Shown piece after piece: positions 31,487 to 44,477 of a stretch of 64,000 nt of DNA (its first letter is position 1; each line of letters starts with the position of its first letter). A model generated the notes under the pieces. The model did not search any database, was not told where the DNA came from, and saw only the letters and a program-made list of their open reading frames with translations. The position numbers and the translations under genes were made by a program. This DNA comes from Leadbettera azotonutricia ZAS-9 (GTDB lineage: Bacteria > Spirochaetota > Spirochaetia > Treponematales > Breznakiellaceae), in assembly GCF_000214355.1 (NCBI RefSeq), contig NC_015577.1:2002453-2066452 (forward strand), in the 5' to 3' direction.

Positions 31487-31497
31487 TCGCCGGTTTT
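31477..31497 (+). terminator. Hairpin terminator of the chagasin-like gene
   Basis: CCGGC, seven loop bases including the stop codon, GCCGG and then TTTT form a short hairpin with a T-run. It overlaps the end of the coding sequence and reaches the stop of the convergent cyclase gene, so both units end here. The stem is only five pairs, so efficiency may be modest. Confidence 0.5.
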
Positions 31498-33416
31498 CAT
31501 AAAAACACCACCTCGTAAGCCTCGATAGGTTTTTCGTAGCCCTTGACTCGGACTTCCCGCCTTTCGCCAAAGCTGAACATATCCTGCGTTTTTTCACGGA
31601 CTGCGGAGGTAACGAGGATGCCGCCGGCGGGGGCGGCGCCTTCCATGCGCTGGCCCAGGTTGACATCGGCGCCGATGACGGTGTATTCGATGCGGTTTTT
31701 GATTCCCAGGTTGCCCACAATGACATGGCCGGTATTTATTCCCATACGGACTTTTAGATCGATGTTGGCGCGATCCTTCCATGTCAAAGCCATCTCGCGG
31801 ATTTTCTTTTGCATGGATATGGCAGCGTCAACGCAGCGGCGGGTATGGTCGGGCATGTCGAAGGGATCGCCAAAGAAAGCGAGAATGCCATCGCCCATGA
31901 ATTTGTCCACTGTCCCTCCATATTCAAAGATGATGCTTCCCATGGCCTCCAGGTATTCGCTTAAAAAAGCATGAACCAGTGACGGTTCTTTGTCACGGGA
32001 CCAGGCGGTAAAGCTCGCGATATCAGAAAAAAGAATGGTAAGCTCTTTATAGGCAGGGGCAAGGTCTATCTTTTTTTCCGAAGCAATTCGGGCAGCAAGG
32101 GAACGGGGGAAATAGCGGGAAAGGGCATTTTGATAGAGGATCTGTTCCTTATAGCGGCGGAACAGGCGCAGAACAAAGCCGCTTATCCAAAAGAGAAAAA
32201 GCCCCGACCCAATTGCCCCATACCAGGGGCAGAGGCGCAGCAGAAACCAGGCGAGCACAGTCCAAAGGGTAAAGCCCCCGAGAAGCGCCAAAAAAGCAAT
32301 GTTATAGCGGGCATCCTTTTTTATGAAACTTAAAAACAGCAATGCGATTAAAAAGACCGCCAGGGTCCCAAGCTTTGCCGCGAACGACCACGGGGCATAA
32401 AAATATTCCTCCATAATTCCCGAGAGCACAGCGGTATGAATCCCCGAAAGGGGGTACACAGTTTCCCCCGGGGTAATGCCGAAATCCCGTTTCCCTGTGG
32501 TGGTATCTGCCGCCATGATCATGCTTCCGGACAGTTCCGAAAAAAGGGATGTGTAAAGTTCTTCGTCATGGGCAGCCCCGGCAATACGCTCAAAAGAAAT
32601 GCGGTAGTCGTCGTCAGCCCAGGTAGCAGTAAAGGGAATGAGGGCCGAGCAGCTTTCGTCCACAGGGATGCGTATGGCTTCATCCCCCGAAAGGGGAAGG
32701 ACGAGACAATGGCCGGGATAGAATTCGATTGCGGAAGGATCTATCCCCAGTTCCCGCACTGCCACTGCCAGGGAAATAGCAGGTATAAGGCCGTCTTCCC
32801 AGCGGTAAAAGAGAGGCGTTCTGCGGTACACACCGTCGCTGTCGGGAAGCACCCCGATATGGGCAAGCTCGGCTGCCGCGCTGGAAATAGGGTAATCGGA
32901 AAGTATAAAGGTCCGCGCCCGTGGTATGTTATTTTTGCCATGCTCCCGTATGTGCCACACATTGGACGAAAGGAGGGCCTTCTCCTCGGAGGTCAGACTG
33001 TCATAGGCGAAGTTGGCGTACTCCATTTCCACCGGCGCGATTGCCATGATGCAGAGGCTGGCAGAGCGGGCGGCTTCCGCAAAAGCAGCGTCCTCCGCGG
33101 CAGGGGTACGGAAAATAAAGTCAAAGGCAACCCGTGCATTATAGGAACCCAGGACATTGAGAAAGTCGGCAAAAGCCCCTCGGCTGCCGAGGCTTTCCCC
33201 AAGGCGGACTTCGGAACTATCGCTTAAGTCCGCGTGTATGATCTGGGAATTCAGAGCCAGGGGAAAATAGCGTATCTTTGCCGAAAGCAGGAGATCGTAA
33301 ATGCCCCGATCAATCGTCGCAAAAAGCCCCAATGCCCCAAGGACTGCCGACAGCACCAGGGCGGCAAGCGCAGCGCATAAAGGCCCCTTAACGGCCGATG
33401 GTGAAGGTTCTGACAA
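31497..33416 (-). CDS. Second CHASE2-domain class III cyclase
   Basis: A 639-residue relative of the cyclase at 27408 but shorter and without the C-terminal tail. An N-terminal anchor (LCAALAALVLSAVLGALGLF) precedes a CHASE2 region with DRGIYDLLLSAKIRYFPLAL and SGSMIMAADTTTGKRDFG, then three membrane helices around residues 345-420. The catalytic domain has LTILFSDIASFTAWSRDKEP, DKFMGDGILAFFGDPF, and RMGINTGHVIVGNLGIKNR followed by GADVNLGQRMEGA. The start is TTG at 33416, about 9 bases after GGGAGG. A divergent birA promoter lies just upstream. The paired but different sensor domains suggest two signals feeding one cyclic nucleotide pool. Confidence 0.9.
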   Translation of the reverse strand: MSEPSPSAVKGPLCAALAALVLSAVLGALGLFATIDRGIYDLLLSAKIRYFPLALNSQIIHADLSDSSEVRLGESLGSRGAFADFLNVLGSYNARVAFDFIFRTPAAEDAAFAEAARSASLCIMAIAPVEMEYANFAYDSLTSEEKALLSSNVWHIREHGKNNIPRARTFILSDYPISSAAAELAHIGVLPDSDGVYRRTPLFYRWEDGLIPAISLAVAVRELGIDPSAIEFYPGHCLVLPLSGDEAIRIPVDESCSALIPFTATWADDDYRISFERIAGAAHDEELYTSLFSELSGSMIMAADTTTGKRDFGITPGETVYPLSGIHTAVLSGIMEEYFYAPWSFAAKLGTLAVFLIALLFLSFIKKDARYNIAFLALLGGFTLWTVLAWFLLRLCPWYGAIGSGLFLFWISGFVLRLFRRYKEQILYQNALSRYFPRSLAARIASEKKIDLAPAYKELTILFSDIASFTAWSRDKEPSLVHAFLSEYLEAMGSIIFEYGGTVDKFMGDGILAFFGDPFDMPDHTRRCVDAAISMQKKIREMALTWKDRANIDLKVRMGINTGHVIVGNLGIKNRIEYTVIGADVNLGQRMEGAAPAGGILVTSAVREKTQDMFSFGERREVRVKGYEKPIEAYEVVFL

Positions 33417-33466: not shown

Positions 33467-33514
33467 TTGACATTCGTCCAATTCTTCGTTAACCTGATAT
33501 TTATGCAGGTTAAC
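33467..33514 (+). promoter_or_regulatory. birA promoter with overlapping BirA-type operator
   Basis: TTGACA (33467-33472), 17 bases, TAACCT (33490-33495) form the promoter. The palindrome GTTAACCTG (33488-33496), nine bases, CAGGTTAAC (33506-33514) covers the -10 box and the birA start codon at 33503. GTTAACC with 13 bases to GGTTAAC closely matches the known biotin-repressor site type of Gram-positive and other bacteria (TTGTTAACC...GGTTAACAA). The BirA-biotinyl-AMP complex would block its own promoter and the downstream transport genes. The predicted transcript starts at the ATG itself. Confidence 0.75.
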
Positions 33515-34522
33515 CAAAATATCCCATGCATCTCGGTAAAAGCATACATTCTGGAGCAATTTCGACAGAAAAAGGGCTGTTTTTTCACCGGCGAAGCCCT
33601 TGCCAGACAACTTGGGGTTTCGCGGGTAGCGGTTTGGAAGGGCGTTAAGGCCCTTATAGCTGCGGGGTATCCTATAGAAGGGGATGATAAAGGCTACCGC
33701 TGGATTCAGGAAAAGGAAAGCCTCACAGGGGACGATTTCCTCTACCCCTGGGAATTCGAAGAAAGGGAAAAGCTGTTTCACCATTGGGTATCTACAGACA
33801 GCACCATGAACCGGGCGGCGGAATTGGCCGGCAGACTATACCCCGGAGGGTCCGTAATCACCGCCGAGGAGCAGACTTCGGGCAGAGGGAGAAACAGCAG
33901 AACCTGGAATTCCCAAAAAGGGGGGCTTTTCTTTACTCTTCTGGAACGTCCTTTTTTATCGGCCCTCGAATATCCCAAACTTTCCATGGCCGCCCAGATT
34001 GCTTCCGCTAGGGCAATTTCCCGCATGTCGGGAAAAAGGGCTTTGCTCCGCTGGCCCAATGATATTTATGTGGAAGGCAAAAAAATCGCAGGAATACTGA
34101 CAGAATTCAGAGCCGAGGGGGACAGGCTGGATTGGATCGCTATAGGCATGGGTATCAATGTGAACAACAAGGTCAGCCAAAAAAGCGCAGCCAATCGCTC
34201 TTCGAATTATTCCGCAAACTCTTCGACAAACCTGTCAGAATTAACCGGACATTCCATTTCGCGCCGGGAAACCCTGCTGGCTGTCCTTAATGAATGGGAC
34301 AAGATAAAAAACGCGGATTCTTACGAACTCGGGAAACACTGGAATTCCATGGCTGAGGGCAGGGGGCGAAAGGTCATGGCTGTGGAGGGCAAGGAAAAAG
34401 AAAACCGGCCTGTTGAAAGAGGCATCTTCCTCGGCGTGGATGTTCTGGGCCGGGGGGTCATAAAAAATGACCGGGATGAGAAACGCGCTTTTTCGCCCGG
34501 ATCTGTTTCATTTTTATTTTAG
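33503..34522 (+). CDS. birA: Biotin operon repressor / biotin-protein ligase BirA
   Basis: A 339-residue two-domain BirA. The N-terminal winged helix reads VKAYILEQFRQKKGCFFTGE, then LARQLGVSRVAVWKGVKALI. The ligase has STDSTMNRAAELA, the biotinyl-adenylate loop EEQTSGRGRNSRTWNS, LLRWPNDIYVEGKKIAGIL and GMGINVNNK, then a C-terminal SH3-like part. It attaches biotin to carboxylase carrier proteins and represses transcription. A serine/asparagine-rich insert (QKSAANRSSNYSANSSTNLS) after NVNNK is not usual. The DNA-binding domain agrees with the operator over its own start. It heads the transport operon. Confidence 0.95.
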   Translation: MQVNQNIPCISVKAYILEQFRQKKGCFFTGEALARQLGVSRVAVWKGVKALIAAGYPIEGDDKGYRWIQEKESLTGDDFLYPWEFEEREKLFHHWVSTDSTMNRAAELAGRLYPGGSVITAEEQTSGRGRNSRTWNSQKGGLFFTLLERPFLSALEYPKLSMAAQIASARAISRMSGKRALLRWPNDIYVEGKKIAGILTEFRAEGDRLDWIAIGMGINVNNKVSQKSAANRSSNYSANSSTNLSELTGHSISRRETLLAVLNEWDKIKNADSYELGKHWNSMAEGRGRKVMAVEGKEKENRPVERGIFLGVDVLGRGVIKNDRDEKRAFSPGSVSFLF

Positions 34523-34574
34523 CGCAAAAGAATCAGGCAACTTCCTGGTTGATTTTTTATAGGAGTATAACATC

Positions 34575-35153
34575 ATGGAAAAATCGAAAACAATTTCGGG
34601 GAGAAAGACTCTCCTCAAAATTTGCCTTGCGGCTCTCTTTGGCGCCTTAACCGCGGCGGGGACTTTTATTTCCATACCGGTGCCGGTTTCGCCAGTGCCC
34701 ATAGTGCTGCAAAATCTTTTTGCCTTGTTGTCAGGTTTGATACTTGGGCCTTTCCTTGGAGGGGCCGCGGTAGGGCTTTACCTTTTGGCAGGCGCTATAG
34801 GGGTGCCGGTATTCGCAGGGGCAGTGGGCGGCATTGCCCATTTTGCAGGGCCCACCGGGGGATTTCTTTTTGGATATCTTTTGGCAGCTGTTGTGGGCGG
34901 CCTGATTGCGGGGCGGCCAAGGGTGGCCAAGGCTGCTCCCCTTTGGCGCATTATTTGCGCGGCGGTTCTCGGCCTGCTTGCAATCTACGTGCCAGGGGTA
35001 ATTTGGCTCAAATTCAGCAGGAATTTAAATTGGGCCCAGGCCCTGGCAGGGGGCTTTATTCCTTTTGTCATAGGCGATGCGATTAAAGCCGTAGTGGCAA
35101 TAATTGCAGCGCCCAGGCTCAGGAGGGCTGTAGCCGATCATCTTGAAGGATAA
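34575..35153 (+). CDS. bioY: Biotin ECF transporter substrate-binding subunit BioY
   Basis: A 192-residue membrane protein with five or six hydrophobic helices. It carries the BioY marks: GALTAAGTFISIPVPVSPVP, NLFALLSGLILGPFLGGAAV, YLLAGAIGVPVFAGAVGG and FAGPTGGFLFGYLLAAVVGG, and near the end GFIPFVIGDAIKAVVA. BioY is the membrane-embedded biotin-binding subunit of energy-coupling-factor importers. It starts 52 bases after birA, with AGGAG 9 bases before the ATG, and overlaps bioM, so repressor and transporter should be co-transcribed. Confidence 0.95.
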   Translation: MEKSKTISGRKTLLKICLAALFGALTAAGTFISIPVPVSPVPIVLQNLFALLSGLILGPFLGGAAVGLYLLAGAIGVPVFAGAVGGIAHFAGPTGGFLFGYLLAAVVGGLIAGRPRVAKAAPLWRIICAAVLGLLAIYVPGVIWLKFSRNLNWAQALAGGFIPFVIGDAIKAVVAIIAAPRLRRAVADHLEG

Positions 35154-35895
35154 GGAAGTCCTATTTAAGGTACGGTCCCTCAGGAAAAGATTCCCCAATG
35201 GCTTTGAAGCCATCAGCAATTTGGATCTCGATATATACAAAGGGGAATGTCTCCTTATGGCAGGGTCCAACGGCTCGGGGAAAACACTGCTTATGCGCAT
35301 GCTGGCGGGGCTTCAGGAGCCTACAGAGGGAAGCATTTTTTTTAAGGGGATTGCCCTTCCCCAATGCACCGGCCTGCTCCGCAGATCCCTGGGCATTGTA
35401 TTCCAGGATGCGGATTCCCAAATCGTCGGCGAAACCGTGGAAGAGGATATACGCTTCGGCCCTGAAAACCTCAAGCTTGGCAAAGACGAAATAGGCAGGC
35501 GCGTTGAAGATGCCCTTGAAATGCTGGAAATGAAAACCAAAAGGGACTTCCCTCCCCGCCGTCTGTCGGGCGGCGAAAAACGACGCCTTGCGGTCGCGGG
35601 AGTCATAGCCATGGGCTGCGATACCATCATCATGGATGAGCCTTTTGCCAATCTGGATATGATCGGGGTAGTGCAGGTAATCAAGATAATCAAAGATTTG
35701 AAACAGGCAGGCAGGACTGCCATCATACTCACCCATGAGCTTGAAAAAGTCCTGGCTCTCGCGGACAGGCTTGTCATTCTGGACAAGGGCAGAATCAGGG
35801 CTGATGGGAAACCCGAAGAAGTCCTCGACAGCCTCGACCCAGGCTGGGGGGTGCGTGATCCCCGCATGGGCTGGGAAGCCTTCGCTCATGATTAA
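35143..35895 (+). CDS. bioM: ECF transporter ATPase (BioM type)
   Basis: A 250-residue ABC ATPase of the energy-coupling type. Walker A is GSNGSGKT (about residues 42-49), the Q-loop region VFQDADSQIVGETVEEDIRF is characteristic of ECF ATPases, the signature is RLSGGEKRRLAVAG, Walker B IIMDEPFANLD and the switch histidine is in LTHELEK. It starts at a TTG inside the end of bioY and its stop overlaps the start of bioN (ATGATTAA). It powers BioY-bound biotin uptake. Only one ATPase is present, so it probably acts as a homodimer. Confidence 0.92.
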   Translation: MKDKEVLFKVRSLRKRFPNGFEAISNLDLDIYKGECLLMAGSNGSGKTLLMRMLAGLQEPTEGSIFFKGIALPQCTGLLRRSLGIVFQDADSQIVGETVEEDIRFGPENLKLGKDEIGRRVEDALEMLEMKTKRDFPPRRLSGGEKRRLAVAGVIAMGCDTIIMDEPFANLDMIGVVQVIKIIKDLKQAGRTAIILTHELEKVLALADRLVILDKGRIRADGKPEEVLDSLDPGWGVRDPRMGWEAFAHD

Positions 35896-36529
35896 GAACC
35901 GGCAATGCCCCTGGGCTTACCGCAAGGGGAATTCTTTTGTCCACCGTTTGAACGGGGGCGTAAAGCTGCTCATCCTCCTTCTCCTTTCCATAGCCGTATT
36001 TTTCCCCAATTTCATCGTACTCCCCGTTATCGGCATGATTCTTGTTTTAGGAGCATTGAACGCGGGGATAAAACCATGGGAACTGCTCAGGGGGAGCGGC
36101 CCCCTTTTCATGATTGTAATTGCAGTAATTCTGCTCCAGGGCTTTCATATTTCACCCTTTTCTTTTGACAGTTCAGGTTTAAAAGAGGGCTGCATTTTCG
36201 GCATACAAATGGCCCTTTCTTTTTCCGCAGGGGCACTGCTCTTTTCCGTTGCCACCATGGGGGAAATCAAAAAATCCCTCGCGAGGCTTGAAGCCCTCCT
36301 TCACGTAAAACATTTGAGGCTGAGCCTGGGGCTTTCGCTGATGCTTGGTTTTCTGCCCCGCTTTTTTGAAGTCTGGGAATCCGCGGAGCTTGCCTGGGAA
36401 AGCCGGGGCGGGAAAAAGAGTCTCCGCTTTTTTATTGTCATCATGCCTCTGGTGATCGAAGGGCTCATGGAGACAGCGGCCGAAACTGCGGCAGCTCTGG
36501 AATCGCGGGGCGCTCTTATGATAGACTGA
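35888..36529 (+). CDS. bioN: ECF transporter transmembrane subunit (BioN type)
   Basis: A 213-residue EcfT-family protein. Membrane helices near residues 22-60, 75-95 and 105-130 are followed by the coupling helices. ARLEALLHVKHLRLSLGLSL and the AWESRGGKK segment are typical of the family, where the A-R-G motif contacts the ATPase. The ATG at 35888 lies within the bioM stop region. With bioY and bioM it completes a dedicated BioMNY importer in the inner membrane. The next gene, a TonB-dependent receptor, begins only 21 bases later. Confidence 0.9.
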   Translation: MIKNRQCPWAYRKGNSFVHRLNGGVKLLILLLLSIAVFFPNFIVLPVIGMILVLGALNAGIKPWELLRGSGPLFMIVIAVILLQGFHISPFSFDSSGLKEGCIFGIQMALSFSAGALLFSVATMGEIKKSLARLEALLHVKHLRLSLGLSLMLGFLPRFFEVWESAELAWESRGGKKSLRFFIVIMPLVIEGLMETAAETAAALESRGALMID

Positions 36530-36550
36530 AGAAAAGGGAGCGCGAAGGCT

Positions 36551-39136
36551 TTGGCCTTAGGCAAAAAAATATTTTTCCTCATCATTGCTTTATCCTTCTC
36601 GGTTTTTAATTTGCTCTGGGCAAGGGATGTGGAGATCATTGTGGAAGACACTGACCTCGGCATTCCCCTTGAAGGCGCTGCGATACGTTCCTGGGATAAC
36701 AGCGATTATATGTGCGATGAGAACGGGATAGTCATAATTTCCGTGCCTGATGACAGGCAGGTTACCATACAGGTTCAGTACCCAGGTTATGAAAACGGCA
36801 GGCTCATCATCCCCCTGAAGGGCGACAGCTTTAAGCTGGGCTTAAGGCTCGGCGGGGTTATGGAATCACGGGAGCTTGTGATCGAGGCCAGGCGTCCTGG
36901 TTCAAGCGAAACAAAAAGCGGCCGCAGCGTTGCGATTTCAGGGGAAGCCCTGGAGCGATCATCCCAGATAGGCCTTATCGAAGACGTGATGACTTCCATC
37001 AAGCTCCTTCCGGGGGTAGGCTATACAGGCATGTTCAATGCCATGCCTTCCATACGCGGAGGAGAACCCGGCGACCTCATGGCTGTGCTGGACGGTTTTT
37101 ATATTGAGAACCCTTACCATTGGGGCGGCGGATTTTCAATCTTCGATCCCCACATGGTAGCCAGCGCCCAGCTTTCCCATGGCATTTTTTCCACCCGTTA
37201 CGGGCATACCATTTCGGGGCTTCTGGAAATCACTTCAAAAAAAGCCTCCCCTGATTTGGCGGAGCTTGAGCTTGGCTTGTCCACCAGCGCAGTCAATTTG
37301 AATCTTTCCATGCCTTTGGGAACCAGGGGCGGCCTTATGGTTATGGGGAAAGTTACCTACTGGGATCCTTTTGTCTGGGCTGTCAAGCAGCTTTCCAAGG
37401 TAATTGACAACGACACTCTTCAGATGGTCAATGCGGTAACCACTGCCCCGTATATCAGAAGCAGCGCTATAAATGTAAACTATCGCTTCAATGCGGATCT
37501 TGAATGGACTGCCGAGGCTTTTATAGGCGCGGACGGGGTAGGCGCCGACTACTCCAACGAGAGCAATGATGAATATGTCAAAAGCAAATCCCATATGGTT
37601 TTTGACTGGGACAATCTCCAGGGTTTTTTAATAACCGGCCTTACTTTTAACCCCCGGCGGGATATGGTCCTTAAAACCACTGCGGGGGCAGGGTTTGCCC
37701 AGGCTAAAATTGACGGGGAAATTAATTATGATTACCTGACCGCAAAATACACAAATGATATTATTGCGGATCATCCTAGCCTTGTGCCGCCCTACTCTTA
37801 TACTCTTGATAATGATGATATCGGCATGAATGTCAAAAGCGATGATTCCGCCCTGAATATCCAGGGCCGCATCGATTATGACTGGAGCCTGGGCAACGGC
37901 TTCCTTTGGAGCATCGGGGCACAGGAAATTTACAGCCATCATACTGCCAAACAGGAAGGCCGGTTTTTTGCGGAGATGCAGTACTTTGACACAGCCGTAA
38001 TGGAACTTAAATATATTCACTTCCCCAGGCAGTTTGGAATAGATTTCAGCAATGGAATGTTCAATACTTCCGCATACACCCTTTTGGAATACCTTGCGCC
38101 GGGTGGGCGTTTCGGCGCAGAATTAGGATTAAGGGTTGACCATTTTTATTTTTCCGGTGACGGCTTTGACATTCAGACCGTGCCGGTGCTTAACCCTAGG
38201 CTCAATCTGGACTTCAATGTTTTTAAAAACAAAGGCATTTTTGATTCTTTTGATCTCACCGCCGGGACAGGCCTTTTTTCTTCCATGAATGACGCGGTCG
38301 CTTCCATACAGCTGGATTCGGGCATTGATGATTTTACCTTAAAGCCTAACCGCTCATGGACTTCTGTCGTAGGTATGCGGACCGACATTATGGAAGAGTG
38401 GAGTTTTAACCTGGAGGGTTATTTTAAATTCGTATATGACCGGGCGTATCAATACCTCTATACCCAGCTGGGCGCAGTTCCGGAACAGAGATACCGATTT
38501 AATGGCGACGGCATCATCTGGGGTTTTGACGCGATGCTCCAGAAATTTGATTCCCGGTATTGGGACGGCTGGCTTTCCTACACCTTCACGTACGCAAAGT
38601 ACCATCAGCCTGAAAAGCCTCTCACTGAACTTTCACCGTCCCTCAATACGGAGCTTGAGGATTCAGGCTGGTATTATCCGGGATTTCACCGTTTCCACAA
38701 TATAAACATGGTAATCAATTTTAAGCCCCTAAGGAATTTCAATATTTATACCCGCCTTGGCATTGCATCGGGAAGGCTTAAACCCGAAATAACCGGAAAA
38801 ATCACCAGCTATCTTGTCGATCTTTATGATGACAGCGGCGCTCCAACAGGGAAACAAATCATAAAGTACAAGCGGGAATCCGAATACAACGAAAATTCCA
38901 GGACCACCTGGTCAATTCCGCTGGACACGAAATTTTCATATTTTATTTTCAACCCTAAAACAAAGATGCAAACAGAAATTTACCTTGGAGCCGAAAACCT
39001 GCTTTCCCTTGTGTATGTCGCTAAGGCAAACACCAGCTTTAACCAGTATACCGGCAAGGAAGATACAGGGAGCGACAGCGCCAATTATGAAATGCCCATA
39101 CCCATGGTTTCTTTTGGATTAAAATGGAGCTATTAA
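36551..39136 (+). CDS. TonB-dependent outer-membrane receptor
   Basis: An 861-residue receptor. Signal peptide about residues 1-24; residues ~25-100 form a carboxypeptidase-regulatory-like beta domain. A TonB-box-like ELVIEA is at 108-113. The plug follows (DVMTSIKLLPGVGYTG, SIRGGEPGDLMAVLDGFYIE, then HTISGLLEITSK), and the remainder is a beta-barrel ending in PMVSFGLKWSY, with the usual terminal aromatic. The start is a TTG with GAAGG just upstream. It sits inside the birA-bioYMN to tonB run, so biotin or a biotin conjugate is the leading candidate ligand; this is inferred from position, not from sequence. Confidence 0.9.
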   Translation: MALGKKIFFLIIALSFSVFNLLWARDVEIIVEDTDLGIPLEGAAIRSWDNSDYMCDENGIVIISVPDDRQVTIQVQYPGYENGRLIIPLKGDSFKLGLRLGGVMESRELVIEARRPGSSETKSGRSVAISGEALERSSQIGLIEDVMTSIKLLPGVGYTGMFNAMPSIRGGEPGDLMAVLDGFYIENPYHWGGGFSIFDPHMVASAQLSHGIFSTRYGHTISGLLEITSKKASPDLAELELGLSTSAVNLNLSMPLGTRGGLMVMGKVTYWDPFVWAVKQLSKVIDNDTLQMVNAVTTAPYIRSSAINVNYRFNADLEWTAEAFIGADGVGADYSNESNDEYVKSKSHMVFDWDNLQGFLITGLTFNPRRDMVLKTTAGAGFAQAKIDGEINYDYLTAKYTNDIIADHPSLVPPYSYTLDNDDIGMNVKSDDSALNIQGRIDYDWSLGNGFLWSIGAQEIYSHHTAKQEGRFFAEMQYFDTAVMELKYIHFPRQFGIDFSNGMFNTSAYTLLEYLAPGGRFGAELGLRVDHFYFSGDGFDIQTVPVLNPRLNLDFNVFKNKGIFDSFDLTAGTGLFSSMNDAVASIQLDSGIDDFTLKPNRSWTSVVGMRTDIMEEWSFNLEGYFKFVYDRAYQYLYTQLGAVPEQRYRFNGDGIIWGFDAMLQKFDSRYWDGWLSYTFTYAKYHQPEKPLTELSPSLNTELEDSGWYYPGFHRFHNINMVINFKPLRNFNIYTRLGIASGRLKPEITGKITSYLVDLYDDSGAPTGKQIIKYKRESEYNENSRTTWSIPLDTKFSYFIFNPKTKMQTEIYLGAENLLSLVYVAKANTSFNQYTGKEDTGSDSANYEMPIPMVSFGLKWSY

Positions 39137-39141
39137 TATAA

Positions 39142-39903
39142 ATGAAAAAATTGTCCGGCTTTTTGATATTCAATTTAATTCTCCTTATATCGGGCTGTTC
39201 TACTTTGATGAACAAGGCCGGCGAAGCCCTGGATGGTACAGCTTTTGCGGACAAGACCCTTGCAATTTACGCAACAAAGGGAAAACGAAAAGAACGCAAA
39301 GTCGAAGCGCGGCAAGTTAGGCTTAAGAATGGAGAAGAAATGCTGGCCATTACAGACAGCAATTTCCCCGGCCTGGAATTTCGGGGATATATTCCCGACA
39401 GTTCGGGCAATTTTGAGCTCGGCTCTGCGAAAATACTTTCGTCCCATGTGCATGGCTGGAATGAATTTACCCTGGATATTCTTGGCAGCGCGTCGTTTTC
39501 TGTTAATGGGGACAGGGCAATCTTAAACACTCCCCAACCTATAGAAGGGGTGCAAATTTCTGCAGGACGCATACGGCTAAAGAGCAACAGAATTACCGGA
39601 ACAGAAGCCCTTGCCAATTTACGGAACCGCAGGGAACGCATACTTGCCCTTATCGATTGGATGAAGAAACAGCCTGGTATCCCTGAATTCAAAAATCAAA
39701 AAGATTTTGATAAATATTGGGGTGCTGTGCTTTTCCCAAAACAGGCTTCCAACAGCAAATTCGGGGAAAGCCTTGAAGAATATTATGATTCAGGCGCCAT
39801 GCTCAGGGATTGGGAAGAAGCATCCCCATGGATATATATAGAATACTGCTGGGATGATATTATTGCGGGATTAAACAATACTGTTTTAACAAAAACAAAA
39901 TAA
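39142..39903 (+). CDS. Lipoprotein between receptor and ExbB
   Basis: A 253-residue lipoprotein: the signal peptide ends in LISGC (lipobox, cysteine at about residue 19). The mature part is mixed strand and helix, for example SNFPGLEFRGYIPDSSGNFE, LDILGSASFSVNGDRA and IEGVQISAGRIRLKSNRI, with a helical C-terminal third. I do not recognise a family. It begins 5 bases after the receptor and ends 9 bases before exbB. Being locked between receptor and energiser genes, it may be a surface or periplasmic helper, such as a ligand-capture or receptor-assembly protein. Confidence 0.75.
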   Translation: MKKLSGFLIFNLILLISGCSTLMNKAGEALDGTAFADKTLAIYATKGKRKERKVEARQVRLKNGEEMLAITDSNFPGLEFRGYIPDSSGNFELGSAKILSSHVHGWNEFTLDILGSASFSVNGDRAILNTPQPIEGVQISAGRIRLKSNRITGTEALANLRNRRERILALIDWMKKQPGIPEFKNQKDFDKYWGAVLFPKQASNSKFGESLEEYYDSGAMLRDWEEASPWIYIEYCWDDIIAGLNNTVLTKTK

Positions 39904-39912
39904 GGAGACACT

Positions 39913-40569
39913 ATGGGATCATCATTTTCTTTGCTTGAGCTTTTTGTTTTGGGCGGCTTTTTTATGTGGCCCCTGCTTTTCTTTTCCATTGCCACCATAG
40001 CCATTGCCATGGAACGTGCTATATACCTCCTCTACCATAACCTGCGCCTGGATGATCTTAAGGATGCAACCGAAGAATTTATACGCAGCAAAGATCTCAA
40101 CGGGGCCAGGGAATATTTGGAAAAGCTCACCAAAAGGCGCATAGGGGCAAGAATTCTTCTGGTGCTCATCAACCGTGCCATTGGCGCCAATGGAAAGCCA
40201 ATTTCAGAGCACCGCCTTGAAAAGGCTGCGGAAACAGAGGCTGTTACCTGCATTAATTCATTGGAAAACGGCTTTAATTTCCTCACCGCCCTGGGTTCCC
40301 TCTCCCCTCTTACCGGGTTTTTGGGCACTGTCTCGGGCATGATAGGGGCTTTCAAGTCTATTGCGGAGGCATCTGATGTAAATGCCCAAATCGTAGCGAA
40401 CGGCATATATGAAGCCCTTATTACTACGGTCTTCGGCCTCGTTATTGCCATCATCGCCATGGTAGCCCATTCCCTCTTTACCCATGTGGTGGATAAATTT
40501 TCCGCCGAAGTCGAGAGATCCTGTTCCGATATTATCTCCCTATTAAGCGACGAGGCTCCAGAGGCATGA
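39913..40569 (+). CDS. exbB: ExbB/TolQ-type proton channel protein
   Basis: A 218-residue MotA/TolQ/ExbB family protein. An N-terminal helix (LFVLGGFFMWPLLFFSIATI) is followed by a large cytoplasmic part and two further helices: FLTALGSLSPLTGFLGTVSG, then TTVFGLVIAIIAMVAHSLF. The TGFLGTVSGMIGAF block is the conserved pore motif. With ExbD it converts proton flow into movement of TonB. AAGGAG precedes the ATG. It is part of an exbB-exbD-exbD-tonB cluster with 4-base and 8-base overlaps. Confidence 0.93.
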   Translation: MGSSFSLLELFVLGGFFMWPLLFFSIATIAIAMERAIYLLYHNLRLDDLKDATEEFIRSKDLNGAREYLEKLTKRRIGARILLVLINRAIGANGKPISEHRLEKAAETEAVTCINSLENGFNFLTALGSLSPLTGFLGTVSGMIGAFKSIAEASDVNAQIVANGIYEALITTVFGLVIAIIAMVAHSLFTHVVDKFSAEVERSCSDIISLLSDEAPEA

Positions 40570-40967
40570 AACTCCAAAGGCGCAAAAGGGCAGGCTTCCT
40601 GGAATCCAGCGCTGCAAGCGATATGGCATTTCTCCTTATTATCTATTTTATAGTCATTGCGGGCTTTAATATTAATAAGGGTTTCCTTATGAACCTTCCG
40701 GCCAGGGATTCAATGCGCATGATCCTGAAAGATGATCTTATGCGGTTTGATATGGACGGCAGGGGCGATATTTCTTACGAAGGGAATTCGTTGGCCCCTG
40801 CGGAAGCCGAAAGATTGATTCAGCGGGCCGCCACGAGCCGCCCCAATTTGGCCGTAGTCCTGTCAATAAACCCAGGCGCGCCATGGCAGCAGGTGGTTTC
40901 CTTTGTGGAATTGGCGCAAAAGCTTGAGATAAATTCCTTTTCATTTAACATGAAGGGGGATTCATGA
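40566..40967 (+). CDS. exbD: ExbD-type protein, first copy
   Basis: A 133-residue ExbD/TolR family protein: one N-terminal membrane helix (MAFLLIIYFIVIAGFNI) and a small periplasmic domain. The expected proton-carrying aspartate is in AASDMAFLLIIYF. The periplasmic part ends NSFSFNMKGDS. It overlaps exbB and the second exbD by ATGA. Two different ExbD-like subunits suggest a mixed stator rather than simple duplication, since the two share only the general pattern. Confidence 0.88.
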   Translation: MKLQRRKRAGFLESSAASDMAFLLIIYFIVIAGFNINKGFLMNLPARDSMRMILKDDLMRFDMDGRGDISYEGNSLAPAEAERLIQRAATSRPNLAVVLSINPGAPWQQVVSFVELAQKLEINSFSFNMKGDS

Positions 40968-41362
40968 AATTAGCGCGAAAACAAAAGAATTTTATAGTCC
41001 CCTTGAATTCCATGTCCGATGTGGCGTTCCTTCTCCTCATTTTTATTATGCTTGTATCGCTTATTAATTACCGAAAGGAAGTCAAGATCGATTACCCCGA
41101 AGCTGAAACTGCAAAAAAGACCAGCGCCGAAAAAAACCTCGAAATTTGGGTGGATCGTTTTGGAAGCCTTTATTTGGACGGCGATTTATGCGATATCAAT
41201 ACCATAGAAGCGGGCATTGTCAACGCATATCAAAATGCCCCTGATACACGGGTGCATATCATTGCGGATCGTGACACCCCCTTTGAGCATATACACAAAG
41301 TCCTTGAGATCCTGCAAATACTTCAATACCGGGTAGTAAGTTTCGTGGTCAAAGATGCCTAA
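40964..41362 (+). CDS. exbD: ExbD-type protein, second copy
   Basis: A 132-residue ExbD family protein with the classic SMSDVAFLLLIFIMLVSLI helix, where the aspartate is the proton site. The periplasmic domain reads VDRFGSLYLDGDL, then IIADRDTPFEHIHKVLEI and RVVSFVVKDA, close to canonical ExbD. It overlaps both neighbours. It is nearer to the standard family than the first copy. Confidence 0.92.
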   Translation: MKLARKQKNFIVPLNSMSDVAFLLLIFIMLVSLINYRKEVKIDYPEAETAKKTSAEKNLEIWVDRFGSLYLDGDLCDINTIEAGIVNAYQNAPDTRVHIIADRDTPFEHIHKVLEILQILQYRVVSFVVKDA

Positions 41363-41978
41363 CGCAAAACATTCCGGTGAAAACAAAATACGCCTCCTCA
41401 TTTTTATGCTTGTCGCGGCTCTTCACGGTATTTTGCTGTTCTTTGTGGTGTTCCATTTTAAAAATGAGATAAAGGCCGAAGAGCCCCCTGCAAATGTAAT
41501 GAAGCTTGTGGACGTACGGGAGCAGCTCCCCCCTCCCCCGCCGCCCAGGGAAAGGCCCCCTGAAATTGTCCAGAACACCGTTGAGGCTGTGGCAGAAACC
41601 ATGATCGAAACTGACGAAGTCCCTGATGCGGTAATTACAAGCACCCTTCCCTATGTGGAGGAAGAAACCATAGAGTATCTTCCCATGAACAAGGTATCAA
41701 GGCTCCCGGAGTTTCCCGAGGATCAGATAAAACGAGCCATTGTGTATCCCCCCATTGCCCTGCGTTCCAATATTGAAGGGACGGTCTACCTTGAACTTTT
41801 TGTGGATCGCCAGGGGGTAATACGCCAGATATCAATATTGAGGGAAACACCTGAAGGCAGGGGCTTCGGGGAGGCTGCGGTCAATGCCTTTAAAGGCATA
41901 CAGGGCAAGCCCGCCGAATCAAATGGGCAAATTGTAGCAGTGCGTTACCGTTATCCTATACGCTTTACCATCAGGTAG
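41355..41978 (+). CDS. tonB: TonB-family energy transducer
   Basis: A 207-residue TonB-like protein: a single N-terminal helix (LLIFMLVAALHGILLFFVVF), a proline-rich stretch (LPPPPPPRERPPEIV), a spacer, and a C-terminal TonB domain (YPPIALRSNIEGTVYLELFV, then RQGVIRQISILRETPEGRGF and YRYPIRFTIR). It spans the periplasm and pulls on the receptor's TonB box using ExbB/ExbD. The start overlaps exbD. The stop overlaps the end of the convergent ABC ATPase gene by 8 bases. Confidence 0.92.
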   Translation: MPNAKHSGENKIRLLIFMLVAALHGILLFFVVFHFKNEIKAEEPPANVMKLVDVREQLPPPPPPRERPPEIVQNTVEAVAETMIETDEVPDAVITSTLPYVEEETIEYLPMNKVSRLPEFPEDQIKRAIVYPPIALRSNIEGTVYLELFVDRQGVIRQISILRETPEGRGFGEAAVNAFKGIQGKPAESNGQIVAVRYRYPIRFTIR

Positions 41979-42720
41979 CGAGGCCGACCAAAACTTCAAC
42001 AAGCTTTCCCTCCAATTCCGCTGCCTTGTGGGAACCATAAGCCCTTTCTTTTTTATTCAGCGTCAGTTCTTCATCAAAAACAATGCCTTGCCCTGCCTCG
42101 CCGAGGACAAGTATCCTGCTCCCCAAATAGAGGGCTTCCTTGGGATCATGGGTAACTGCCAGGGCAAGCCTTTTTTCCCTGTGCAGAAGATCCAGGGTTA
42201 GATCCATAAGTCCAAGCCGCAACGGTATATCCAGGGAATGAAAAGCCTCGTCCATGAGAAGTACGGGTGAAGGATAGGCAAAAGCCCTGGCAATGGAAAC
42301 CCTCTGCTTCTGGCCTCCCGAAAGCTCCGAGGGAAAGGCATGGGCTTTTTCTTCCATGGATACCAATTCAAGAAAGTGGCCTGCCCGAGCCAGGGCTTCG
42401 CCTTTTCCAAATATTTTTTCCAATGCCAAAGAAACATTTTCCAGCACCGTAAAATGGGGAAGGAGGCGATCCTCCTGAAACACAAAAGAGAAAGTCCCGC
42501 ATGCATCGTTATTGCTGCCCTCATCTTCAATATCAATGCTGCCTGAACCAGGCTGCAAAAGCCCGGCAATAAGCCGCAACAGGGTTGTCTTACCGCAGCC
42601 GGAAGGGCCAAGCAACGCTGTGGGCAGATCGTCACTGTCAGATCCCAGCAGCAAATTAAAATCAGTAAAGAGAAGATGTTCAGTGAAGCCAAATGAAAGA
42701 TCTTTGATGCGTATCTTCAT
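41971..42720 (-). CDS. ABC transporter ATPase, NitT/TauT type
   Basis: A 249-residue ABC ATPase with Walker A GPSGCGKTTLLRLIAG, Q-loop FVFQEDRLLPHFTVLENV, signature SELSGGQKQRVSIARA, Walker B VLLMDEAFHSLD and switch VTHDPKEALYLG. The set fits the nitrate/sulfonate/taurine and thiamine-precursor importers. In Walker B the usual glutamate after DE is kept (MDEAF). It overlaps the permease by 4 bases and completes a three-gene importer. Substrate unknown. Confidence 0.92.
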   Translation of the reverse strand: MKIRIKDLSFGFTEHLLFTDFNLLLGSDSDDLPTALLGPSGCGKTTLLRLIAGLLQPGSGSIDIEDEGSNNDACGTFSFVFQEDRLLPHFTVLENVSLALEKIFGKGEALARAGHFLELVSMEEKAHAFPSELSGGQKQRVSIARAFAYPSPVLLMDEAFHSLDIPLRLGLMDLTLDLLHREKRLALAVTHDPKEALYLGSRILVLGEAGQGIVFDEELTLNKKERAYGSHKAAELEGKLVEVLVGLAT

Positions 42721-43457
42721 GGTTTTTTTCTTTTAATGACAAGACCCAGCATGAACTGGGTAAGGGCTGCCGCCAAAACTGTCGCAAGGGTCCAGGCAAA
42801 AAGCTCGGGGGTTTCGAGCTGGGCTTTGGCCTGTTGCATGCCGGTTCCTATGCTGCGGAGGGGCTGCACTAAAACTTCCGCGGCCACTACAACCTTCCAG
42901 CAGAGCGAAAGGCTGCTCTTTAGCCCTCCAAGCATAAAGGGCATTATGGAAGGAATATAAAGATACCGCAAGGTTTCTTTGGGATTCATCCTGTAAACGA
43001 TGAATAATTCTTTTAGCTTAGGGTCCACCTGGTGTATGCCTTCTATGGTATTTGCAGCCATTACCGGGAAGACCATGAGGAAGGCTGTAAAAACCGGGGT
43101 CTTTTCTGATCCCAATATAAGAAAGCAGATGAGTATGACCGACATTACGGGGGTTGCGGAAATTATCGAAAAGAGGGGTTTTAAAAAGGCGCCCGCACGA
43201 TTATCAAGCCCCGAGGCTATCCCGAAGACAAGGCCCAGGGGCACAGAGATCAACATGCCGCCTATTACCCTTAAAAAACTAAAGCCCAGGCTGGTTAAAA
43301 ATTTCGGGTTTCCAAAAAGGGAACCGAATTTTTCAATTACCGGCAGAGGGCCGGGAAGGATAAGGCTGCTTCCAAAAAGAAATGCCCCAAGCTGCCAAAG
43401 GATGAGCAGAACTATAATCCCTGCCAATAACCAGAGGCCGGCTTTTTCCTGCTTCAT
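42717..43457 (-). CDS. ABC transporter permease, NitT/TauT type
   Basis: A 246-residue inner-membrane permease with about six helices. The first is LLAGIIVLLILWQLGAFLF; the coupling motif reads EGIHQVDPKLKELFIVYRMN, near the EAA loop of the family. LLAGLKSSL-like GGLKSSLSLCWKVVVAAEVL follows, then the last helix ends with AALTQFMLGLVIKRKKP. It lies 4 bases after the binding-protein gene and overlaps the ATPase gene. Permeases of this group import sulfonates, nitrate or pyrimidine precursors. Confidence 0.92.
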   Translation of the reverse strand: MKQEKAGLWLLAGIIVLLILWQLGAFLFGSSLILPGPLPVIEKFGSLFGNPKFLTSLGFSFLRVIGGMLISVPLGLVFGIASGLDNRAGAFLKPLFSIISATPVMSVILICFLILGSEKTPVFTAFLMVFPVMAANTIEGIHQVDPKLKELFIVYRMNPKETLRYLYIPSIMPFMLGGLKSSLSLCWKVVVAAEVLVQPLRSIGTGMQQAKAQLETPELFAWTLATVLAAALTQFMLGLVIKRKKP

Positions 43458-43460
43458 TCT

Positions 43461-44441
43461 CTAGGGCTTATAATAAAAACTGTCTCCCGGAAGGGAGCCG
43501 CCAATGGAAGCAGGAGAAAATTCAAGGAACACTTTGAAAAGCGCCTCTATCTGCGGCCTGGCCTGATCCGCAGGGATAAACACATAATTGCTGCGGGGTA
43601 TGGCAGCGCTAATCACGGGCGCCCTCAGCCCAAGGTCATGCTTTTCTACCAGAACCCCGGCTGCTGCGGGGTTGGAAACAGTCCATTCGATAGAAGCCTT
43701 AAGGCTTTCGAGGATTGCGTTGATTGCAGCGGGATTATAGGCCGCGAAATCCCCGTCTACTGCCAGGACGGTCATGGGATAATTGCCCTGACCGCCCGCT
43801 TTGATCCATTCATCCTGAATATCCCCTATTTGACGGAGATCGTTTTTTCCCGACCGGGCCATGGTGGCAAAGGGTTCGGGCAGCAGGGCGGTGGAAACAC
43901 GTCCGGCGATCAGGGATTGGGCAATTTCCGGATATGCCAGGGCATAGCTCAGGGTTACATCCTTCTCGGGGTTTATCCCCCCGGAAAGAAGCAGACGCCT
44001 GAACACATAATCGGGGGTGGCGCCCTGGCCAGCAACTTCCACGGTTTTGCCCCGCAGATCTGCAAGGCTCTGTACTGCCGGATCGGATGTGAGCAGACTC
44101 AGCATGCCGGTCCCGGTAATCGCGGCGATTTGAATGTTTTTCCCCGAAGAAGCAATCTTCGCCGCCACATTGGCGGGCAATATGCCGACCTTTGCGTCCC
44201 CGGAAATGAAACGGGCTGCCATCAAGTCTGCCTGGGCAAGGGCTTCAAGCTTAACCTCATAACCCCGTATCTGCGGCGGATACTCAAACATGCGTATCAT
44301 GCTGACGCCGGATGGCCCTTTGATGGCGTATATGGCAAGGCTGTTAATGGCCTGTTCATTGGCCCCCCGGGCATGGGCGAATCCGCTGATTGCAAGCAAG
44401 GCTAAAACAATTAGTATCGACCGCGAAAATTTTGTGTTCAT
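43461..44441 (-). CDS. ABC transporter periplasmic binding protein (NMT1/TauA type)
   Basis: A 326-residue exported binding protein. Signal peptide (ILIVLALLAISGFAHA) is followed by the family blocks KVGILPANVAAKIASSGKNI, LRGKTVEVAGQGATPDYVFR, LIAGRVSTALLPEPFATMAR and PMTVLAVDGDFAAYNPAAIN. Two-lobed proteins of this type collect sulfonates, nitrate or thiamine precursors. The ATG at 44441 is preceded by TTTCCA, 17 bases, TATTAT and 7 bases, without a Shine-Dalgarno sequence, so a leaderless message is predicted. An ATG at 44468 would lie inside that promoter. Confidence 0.88.
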   Translation of the reverse strand: MNTKFSRSILIVLALLAISGFAHARGANEQAINSLAIYAIKGPSGVSMIRMFEYPPQIRGYEVKLEALAQADLMAARFISGDAKVGILPANVAAKIASSGKNIQIAAITGTGMLSLLTSDPAVQSLADLRGKTVEVAGQGATPDYVFRRLLLSGGINPEKDVTLSYALAYPEIAQSLIAGRVSTALLPEPFATMARSGKNDLRQIGDIQDEWIKAGGQGNYPMTVLAVDGDFAAYNPAAINAILESLKASIEWTVSNPAAAGVLVEKHDLGLRAPVISAAIPRSNYVFIPADQARPQIEALFKVFLEFSPASIGGSLPGDSFYYKP

Positions 44442-44448
44442 ATTAATA

Positions 44449-44477
44449 ATAATACCGGAATAAGGCATAAATGGAAA
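44449..44477 (-). promoter_or_regulatory. Leaderless-type promoter of the ABC importer operon
   Basis: On the minus strand TTTCCA (44477-44472), a 17-base spacer and TATTAT (44454-44449) precede the ATG at 44441 by 7 bases. This puts the transcription start on the start codon. A longer frame beginning at 44468 would start upstream of transcription and is rejected for that reason. Confidence 0.5.

Follow-up and report, generated by a model that had tools for sequence, protein, structure and literature searches.

A predicted BirA-controlled operon that joins biotin uptake genes to a TonB-dependent receptor module in Leadbettera azotonutricia ZAS-9

Described relatives of the birA-tonB locus

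The closest described relatives of the locus reported here, ten genes in the order birA-bioY-bioM-bioN-receptor-lipoprotein-exbB-exbD-exbD-tonB on the + strand at 33503-41978 of a 64,000-nucleotide stretch (the window) of Leadbettera azotonutricia ZAS-9, are the biotin transporter BioMNY, the BirA repressor/ligase, the TonB-ExbB-ExbD complex and the thiamine system OMthi-PnuT. BioMNY (Hebbeln et al. 2007, cited in PMC5343134) likewise has one component each of S, A and T type, a single ATPase and its genes together, whereas the ZAS-9 unit adds an outer-membrane receptor and an energiser, and is adjoined by BirA and a BirA box rather than by BioR. Described BirA proteins share with that of ZAS-9 the helix-turn-helix (HTH) and ligase domains and an inverted-repeat operator over the promoter; in ZAS-9, however, BirA is predicted to control its own gene together with the uptake genes, and the start codon falls inside the operator. 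Among the Proteobacteria surveyed, bioABCDF is the most conserved part of the regulon and BirA is autoregulated only in Desulfovibrionales (PMC5343134). The ZAS-9 module encodes the three protein families of the TonB-ExbB-ExbD complex, the membrane Asp of its ExbD proteins included, but has ExbD in duplicate and adds a receptor and a lipoprotein of its own.

In OMthi-PnuT of Bacteroides thetaiotaomicron, too, a single vitamin-sensing element controls both a TonB-dependent outer-membrane receptor and a vitamin transporter of the inner membrane, and in most gut Bacteroidetes the thiamine receptor and inner-membrane transporter share an operon (PMC5613172). Where these thiamine receptor operons are split they mostly keep the thiamine pyrophosphate (TPP) riboswitch, and genetics support thiamine transport (PMC5613172), whereas the ZAS-9-type module does not keep the BirA box when split, includes exbB, exbD and tonB in the unit, and has biotin as no more than a candidate ligand. 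A preliminary description of the window, made from the sequence alone, knew of no spirochaetal system of this kind; in agreement, the open-access literature (a coverage from which subscription journals are largely excluded) yielded neither a TonB-dependent receptor in a biotin operon nor such a spirochaetal locus, and the text of a 2026 Breznakiellaceae paper mentions neither biotin nor TonB.

The locus is a new combination of known parts, common to several termite-gut spirochaete genera. We lean towards the explanation that a BirA-autoregulated birA-bioYMN operon captured a pre-existing, general TonB module, which would thereby have become BirA-controlled and whose ligand is not defined by the biotin genes. 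Even if the receptor is not for biotin, the locus is an example of an entire energy-coupled outer-membrane module coming under a vitamin repressor, and it brings to light a conserved Treponematales TonB module that has no assigned ligand.

Operator, promoter and genes in ZAS-9

The features of the locus are as follows (ECF here denotes energy-coupling factor).

33467-33472, + strand: -35 element TTGACA of the birA promoter; 15/16 family birA loci have it 15-16 nt before the dyad, with no more than one mismatch
33488-33514, no strand: BirA-type operator GTTAACC-N13-GGTTAAC; exact dyad; many relatives have it at birA, though their spacers are unrelated
33503-34522, + strand: birA, HTH and biotin-protein ligase (PF03099 6.8e-18, PF08279 2.6e-13, TIGR00121 above cut-off)
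34531-34550, + strand: weak terminator-like hairpin in the birA/bioY interval (-9.9 kcal/mol, z -1.5; not above chance)
34575-35153, + strand: bioY, biotin S component of an ECF transporter (PF02632 1.9e-41)
35143-35895, + strand: bioM, ECF ATPase (PF00005 5.5e-28; Walker A GSNGSGKT and signature LSGGEKRR in the sequence)
35888-36529, + strand: bioN, ECF T component (PF02361 1.6e-12; two ESRG motifs)
36551-39136, + strand: TonB-dependent receptor with N-terminal carboxypeptidase-like domain, plug and barrel (PF07715; Foldseek)
39142-39903, + strand: outer-membrane-type lipoprotein, conserved receptor partner (lipobox LISGC; homologues behind the receptor in relatives)
39913-40569, + strand: exbB (PF01618 1.8e-27)
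40566-40967, + strand: exbD, copy 1 (PF02472 2.2e-09; membrane Asp within SSAASDMAFLL)
40964-41362, + strand: exbD, copy 2 (PF02472 4.2e-22; membrane Asp within NSMSDVAFLL)
41355-41978, + strand: tonB, proline-rich linker and C-terminal domain (PF03544 4.9e-13)
41971-44468, - strand: convergent SsuB/SsuC/NMT1-like ABC importer, the downstream boundary, outside the operon (ORFs; NMT1_2 5.8e-11)

The locus is probably a real BirA-controlled operon and a single transcription unit. Promoter, operator and birA start codon overlap, and this geometry is kept at 15 of the 16 family birA loci compared, all of which have a frame of birA length that begins within such a dyad. In the window TTGACA sits 15 nt upstream of the dyad and the birA ATG falls in its right part; given a 17-nt spacer, the predicted -10 element TAACCT (33490-33495) would fall in the left half-site. 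The spacers of the dyads differ among birA loci, the arms being the conserved part. The encoded protein combines a ligase with an N-terminal HTH, and its operator is a dyad overlapping the promoter, as in BirA repressors; the conserved geometry strongly supports the predicted autorepression by BirA. As the start codon lies in the right-hand part of the dyad at all 16 family loci, birA most likely begins at ATG 33503, inside the operator, rather than at TTG 33467.

Thus the operator that the preliminary description saw over the first promoter is borne out, as are its ten one-strand genes with gaps of at most 52 bases, their order and their places, whereas its unit start at 33467 has to be moved. 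The junctions are, in order, 52 bases between birA and bioY, two overlaps, 21 bases between bioN and the receptor gene, 5, 9, and overlaps for the remainder. Pfam assigns nine of the ten products (BPL_LplA_LipB with HTH_11, BioY, ABC_tran, CbiQ, TonB plug, MotA_ExbB, ExbD, ExbD and TonB_C); the tenth, the lipoprotein, matches no Pfam family, but a signal peptide and lipobox are present in its sequence. A BioY S component with a linked ECF ATPase and T component supports a putative biotin importer BioMNY encoded at the locus. TIGR04520 is the top-scoring ECF ATPase model for bioM, yet all such models, this one included, stay under their own cut-offs. All three protein types of a TonB-ExbB-ExbD system are encoded here; two TonB_C proteins were found in the genome (one contig, 3,855,671 bases), the tonB product being one of them.

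Five exact copies of the operator are present in that genome; base count alone predicts about 0.014, and a backwards control gave none. The other four (G000:C1:1557359, 1904566, 2814153 and 3797450) comprise one intergenic copy and three within long open frames that look by eye like ftsA, ligA and an mlaD-like gene. Because of these four copies, mostly inside frames, the birA operator is distinguished by its position and not by rarity. We considered the additional boxes as further biotin targets and dropped them, as three of the four lie inside long frames of non-biotin genes; a box upstream of bioY in genome G002 was dropped as a regulatory site too, being located in a neighbouring reductase-like frame. 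Two loci of genus g15 (L134 and L135) have a second exact dyad within a divergent reductase-like gene, some 300 bases upstream of that at birA.

A scan of the locus for promoters and terminators found sites no commoner than in shuffled sequence, and none in the 21-base gap between bioN and the receptor gene. This gap, together with the overlap of the two junction genes in genus g20, argues against a receptor module that has its own promoter and stands beside bioN by a frozen accident, with no real effect of BirA on the receptor; we consider such a bystander improbable, and return below to the neighbour that speaks for it. Joint BirA control of bioYMN and the receptor module is a prediction well supported by sequence evidence for the linked genomes that keep birA and the box; given the weak hairpin between birA and bioY, birA and the remaining genes may be made in unequal amounts. 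When biotin is plentiful, BirA with biotinyl-5'-AMP would silence the unit by binding the dyad, which covers the -10 element and the birA start codon; when biotin is scarce, read-through from birA to tonB would yield the entire unit. BioMNY would then carry biotin through the inner membrane, while the receptor would draw energy from its own TonB-ExbB-ExbD complex to take its ligand through the outer one. Operon capture would have brought the module under biotin control in the linked lineage.

The bioY of the operon encodes the only BioY protein found in the genome, which also encodes several biotinyl/lipoyl-domain proteins. No biotin synthase gene bioB scores above the curated cut-off (best match 75 bits against 225 required; other bio genes were not searched), and for this reason the cell is probably a biotin scavenger, as the preliminary description had supposed from the window.

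The TonB module apart from biotin genes

Relatives were compared in a family set of 200 genomes, nearly all of them termite-gut Treponema drafts, with Breznakiella homolactica; we read loci in overlapping sets of 79 (receptor), about 40 (bioY) and 80 (named). A receptor homologue was found in 148 genomes and BioY in 151, with no clear association between them (both 117, receptor only 31, BioY only 34, neither 18; p 0.06), nor was there a clear one between receptor and bioB. The stable unit across loci is receptor-lipoprotein-exbB-exbD-exbD-tonB, with or without bioYMN upstream. In most relatives, and in a second Treponematales family represented by genera g68 and g96, the receptor belongs to a module apart from biotin genes. 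The orthologous module of the second family has a receptor roughly 30-36% identical to that of ZAS-9, the same order of receptor, exbB, exbD and tonB, and the lipoprotein in several cases; it differs from the ZAS-9 module in lacking adjoining biotin genes at the loci read (L262-L269), and at the one Pfam-annotated locus (L263, genus g96) it lies behind genes for an extracytoplasmic function (ECF) sigma factor and a caspase-domain protein. Judged by this gene order, the module stands on its own as a conserved system in Treponematales. A divergent receptor member within Breznakiellaceae has a zf-HC2 (anti-sigma type) gene upstream. By eye, the module of L264, L267, L268 and L269 (genus g96) also follows a caspase-domain-like gene, at several of them with an ECF sigma-like gene as well.

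A dedicated biotin receptor would be expected to show consistent linkage to biotin genes and biotin-responsive control where it stands alone, and neither was found. Among the 91 distinct receptors for which 2.5 kb or more of upstream sequence was available, bioN is immediately upstream in six and within four genes in nine. In seven genomes with a box at birA or bioY, the best site in the 500 bases upstream of unlinked receptors has 5-6 mismatches in 14, which is background. The single-contig genome of Breznakiella homolactica has birA-bioYMN with one exact box and the module elsewhere. G084 has the module and a bioB above cut-off, and G143 has bioB and a solo receptor; no BioY was found in either.

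Linkage to biotin genes and the ligand of the receptor

Several points weigh against a captured general module. The receptor gene directly follows bioN in ten genomes (G000, the ZAS-9 genome, and G074, G075, G076, G004, G007, G079, G080, G124 and G112), representing seven genera of termite-gut spirochaetes with spacings from overlap to 96 bases; because seven genera have it, the join is no single-genome quirk, and so tight and recurrent an adjacency could mean selection for joint function. Linkage state changes at least eight times on the receptor tree, with adjacency at distant points. Neither neighbours nor riboswitches (the latter sought at 25 receptor loci and in the window) indicate another ligand. 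Receptors can change specificity, and independence from biotin genes elsewhere does not fix the ligand in ZAS-9. The receptor tree and gene order themselves were derived from simply picked ORFs labelled by BLAST, and most genomes are incomplete drafts, so that a BioY missing from any one of them is not firm.

The complete set with birA and a visible box occurs in G000, G075, G076, G004 and G079 (the receptor of G079 is cut by a contig end). Elsewhere bioN and the receptor gene are separated by a 510-base gap (G070), one opposite-strand gene (G034) or three transporter-like genes (G002).

Such adjacency is what a dedicated biotin route across both membranes, the central proposal of the preliminary description, would lead one to expect: the receptor would bind biotin or a biotinylated compound, TonB-ExbBD would energise it, the lipoprotein may hand the ligand over, BioMNY would import it and BirA would shut the route off at sufficiency. 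The shared operator and promoter, the short bioN-receptor gap and the TonB machinery within the unit agree with it, as do the lack of a bioB above cut-off in a genome with biotinyl/lipoyl-domain proteins and the precedent of the B. thetaiotaomicron thiamine receptor and inner-membrane transporter (PMC5613172). In G190 (locus L151, 5751-10037), bioYMN even runs directly into exbB-exbD-exbD-tonB without receptor or lipoprotein; no homologue of the window receptor was found in this 96% complete genome, which has another plug-domain receptor. Still, most homologues and the second-family loci read sit apart from biotin genes, the separate modules have no BirA box whereas the riboswitch is usually retained when thiamine receptor operons split (PMC5613172), and G084 keeps the module in a genome that has bioB but no detected BioY. 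Moreover, porins admit solutes up to about 600 Da (a limit quoted in PMC8589159), and free biotin is far smaller, so that an active receptor is not obviously needed. The route is possible, but we doubt it. What stands of the original proposal is BirA-type autoregulation, BioMNY, the co-directional continuity from birA to tonB and the recurrence of this order in other genera; a receptor for biotin is not supported in the form proposed. Receptor homologues consistently tied to other ligands and unlinked from bioY had been named as evidence against it, and only the second half was observed, for most homologues.

The adjacency is also retained no better than that of the convergent ABC operon. In the window the module sits between bioN and this SsuB-like operon, and G013, G014, G015 and G018 lack a receptor homologue, and there bioYMN, accompanied by birA, runs directly up against a convergent ABC gene resembling the window SsuB; the importer adjoins the module, or bioN directly, in several genera. 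On the simplest reading the bio operon gained the module at its end within Breznakiellaceae, and the two later separated in many lineages, a history that would require excision in Breznakiella homolactica, where bioYMN faces the ABC operon and the module is elsewhere. Counted by reading, the module keeps its place beside the SsuBCA-like operon in about seven genera (g1, g2, g3, g13, g20, g55 and g57), with no evident shared function, which is the point in favour of a mere bystander; as this number is similar to that for bioN, adjacency to bioN alone is weak evidence of selection.

The captured, general module remains the explanation to which we incline, and the receptor itself gives no hint of its ligand. 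It has the plug domain and large beta barrel of TonB-dependent receptors: PF07715 matches 15/15 aligned members, with the window protein above cut-off, and Foldseek with the predicted structure (pLDDT 67) returns TonB-dependent receptors as top matches (E 1e-15). The plug is modelled poorly, the structure shows this fold only, and the receptor profile retrieved no solved structures by sequence. Cobalamin was suggested as ligand by a B12-dependent ribonucleotide reductase gene beside two solo receptors and a CobQ/CobB-type gene beside one; it was dropped because other solo receptors adjoin unrelated housekeeping genes and no riboswitch was detected at the 25 receptor loci or in the window.

Passage of biotin across the outer membrane of biotin-dependent bacteria is usually ascribed to porins. 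Specificity may nevertheless have shifted towards biotin in the linked lineages, and biotin as ligand is a live hypothesis, if a minority one; that the receptor of Leadbettera and the other directly linked lineages became one for biotin or biotinylated compounds, completing a BirA-controlled route through both membranes, we hold to be unlikely. If the receptor does take biotin, it would represent a class of vitamin receptor of which we found no description, and would reveal the means by which termite-gut spirochaetes compete for biotin.

The lipoprotein has homologues 37-48% identical behind the receptor in relatives. Its fold search gave no Foldseek match with E <0.001, and its resemblance to lipocalin-like barrels is weak, the best VIA-align Z of 4.6 being insufficient for assigning function. 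The window protein lacks an in-frame stretch of about 40 residues found in 19 aligned homologues.

Some further observations concern neighbours and outlying homologues. A CHASE2-domain guanylate/adenylate cyclase gene (31497-33416, - strand) diverges from birA in the window, and a CHASE2 cyclase likewise diverges from the receptor gene in L038. The receptor of L262 (G414, second family) is 64% identical to that of the window, far closer than its own relatives are, which points to transfer or misplacement. Receptor homologues at L246 and L249 are on contigs labelled as termite-gut Fibrobacteria and could reflect transfer between gut phyla or a binning error.

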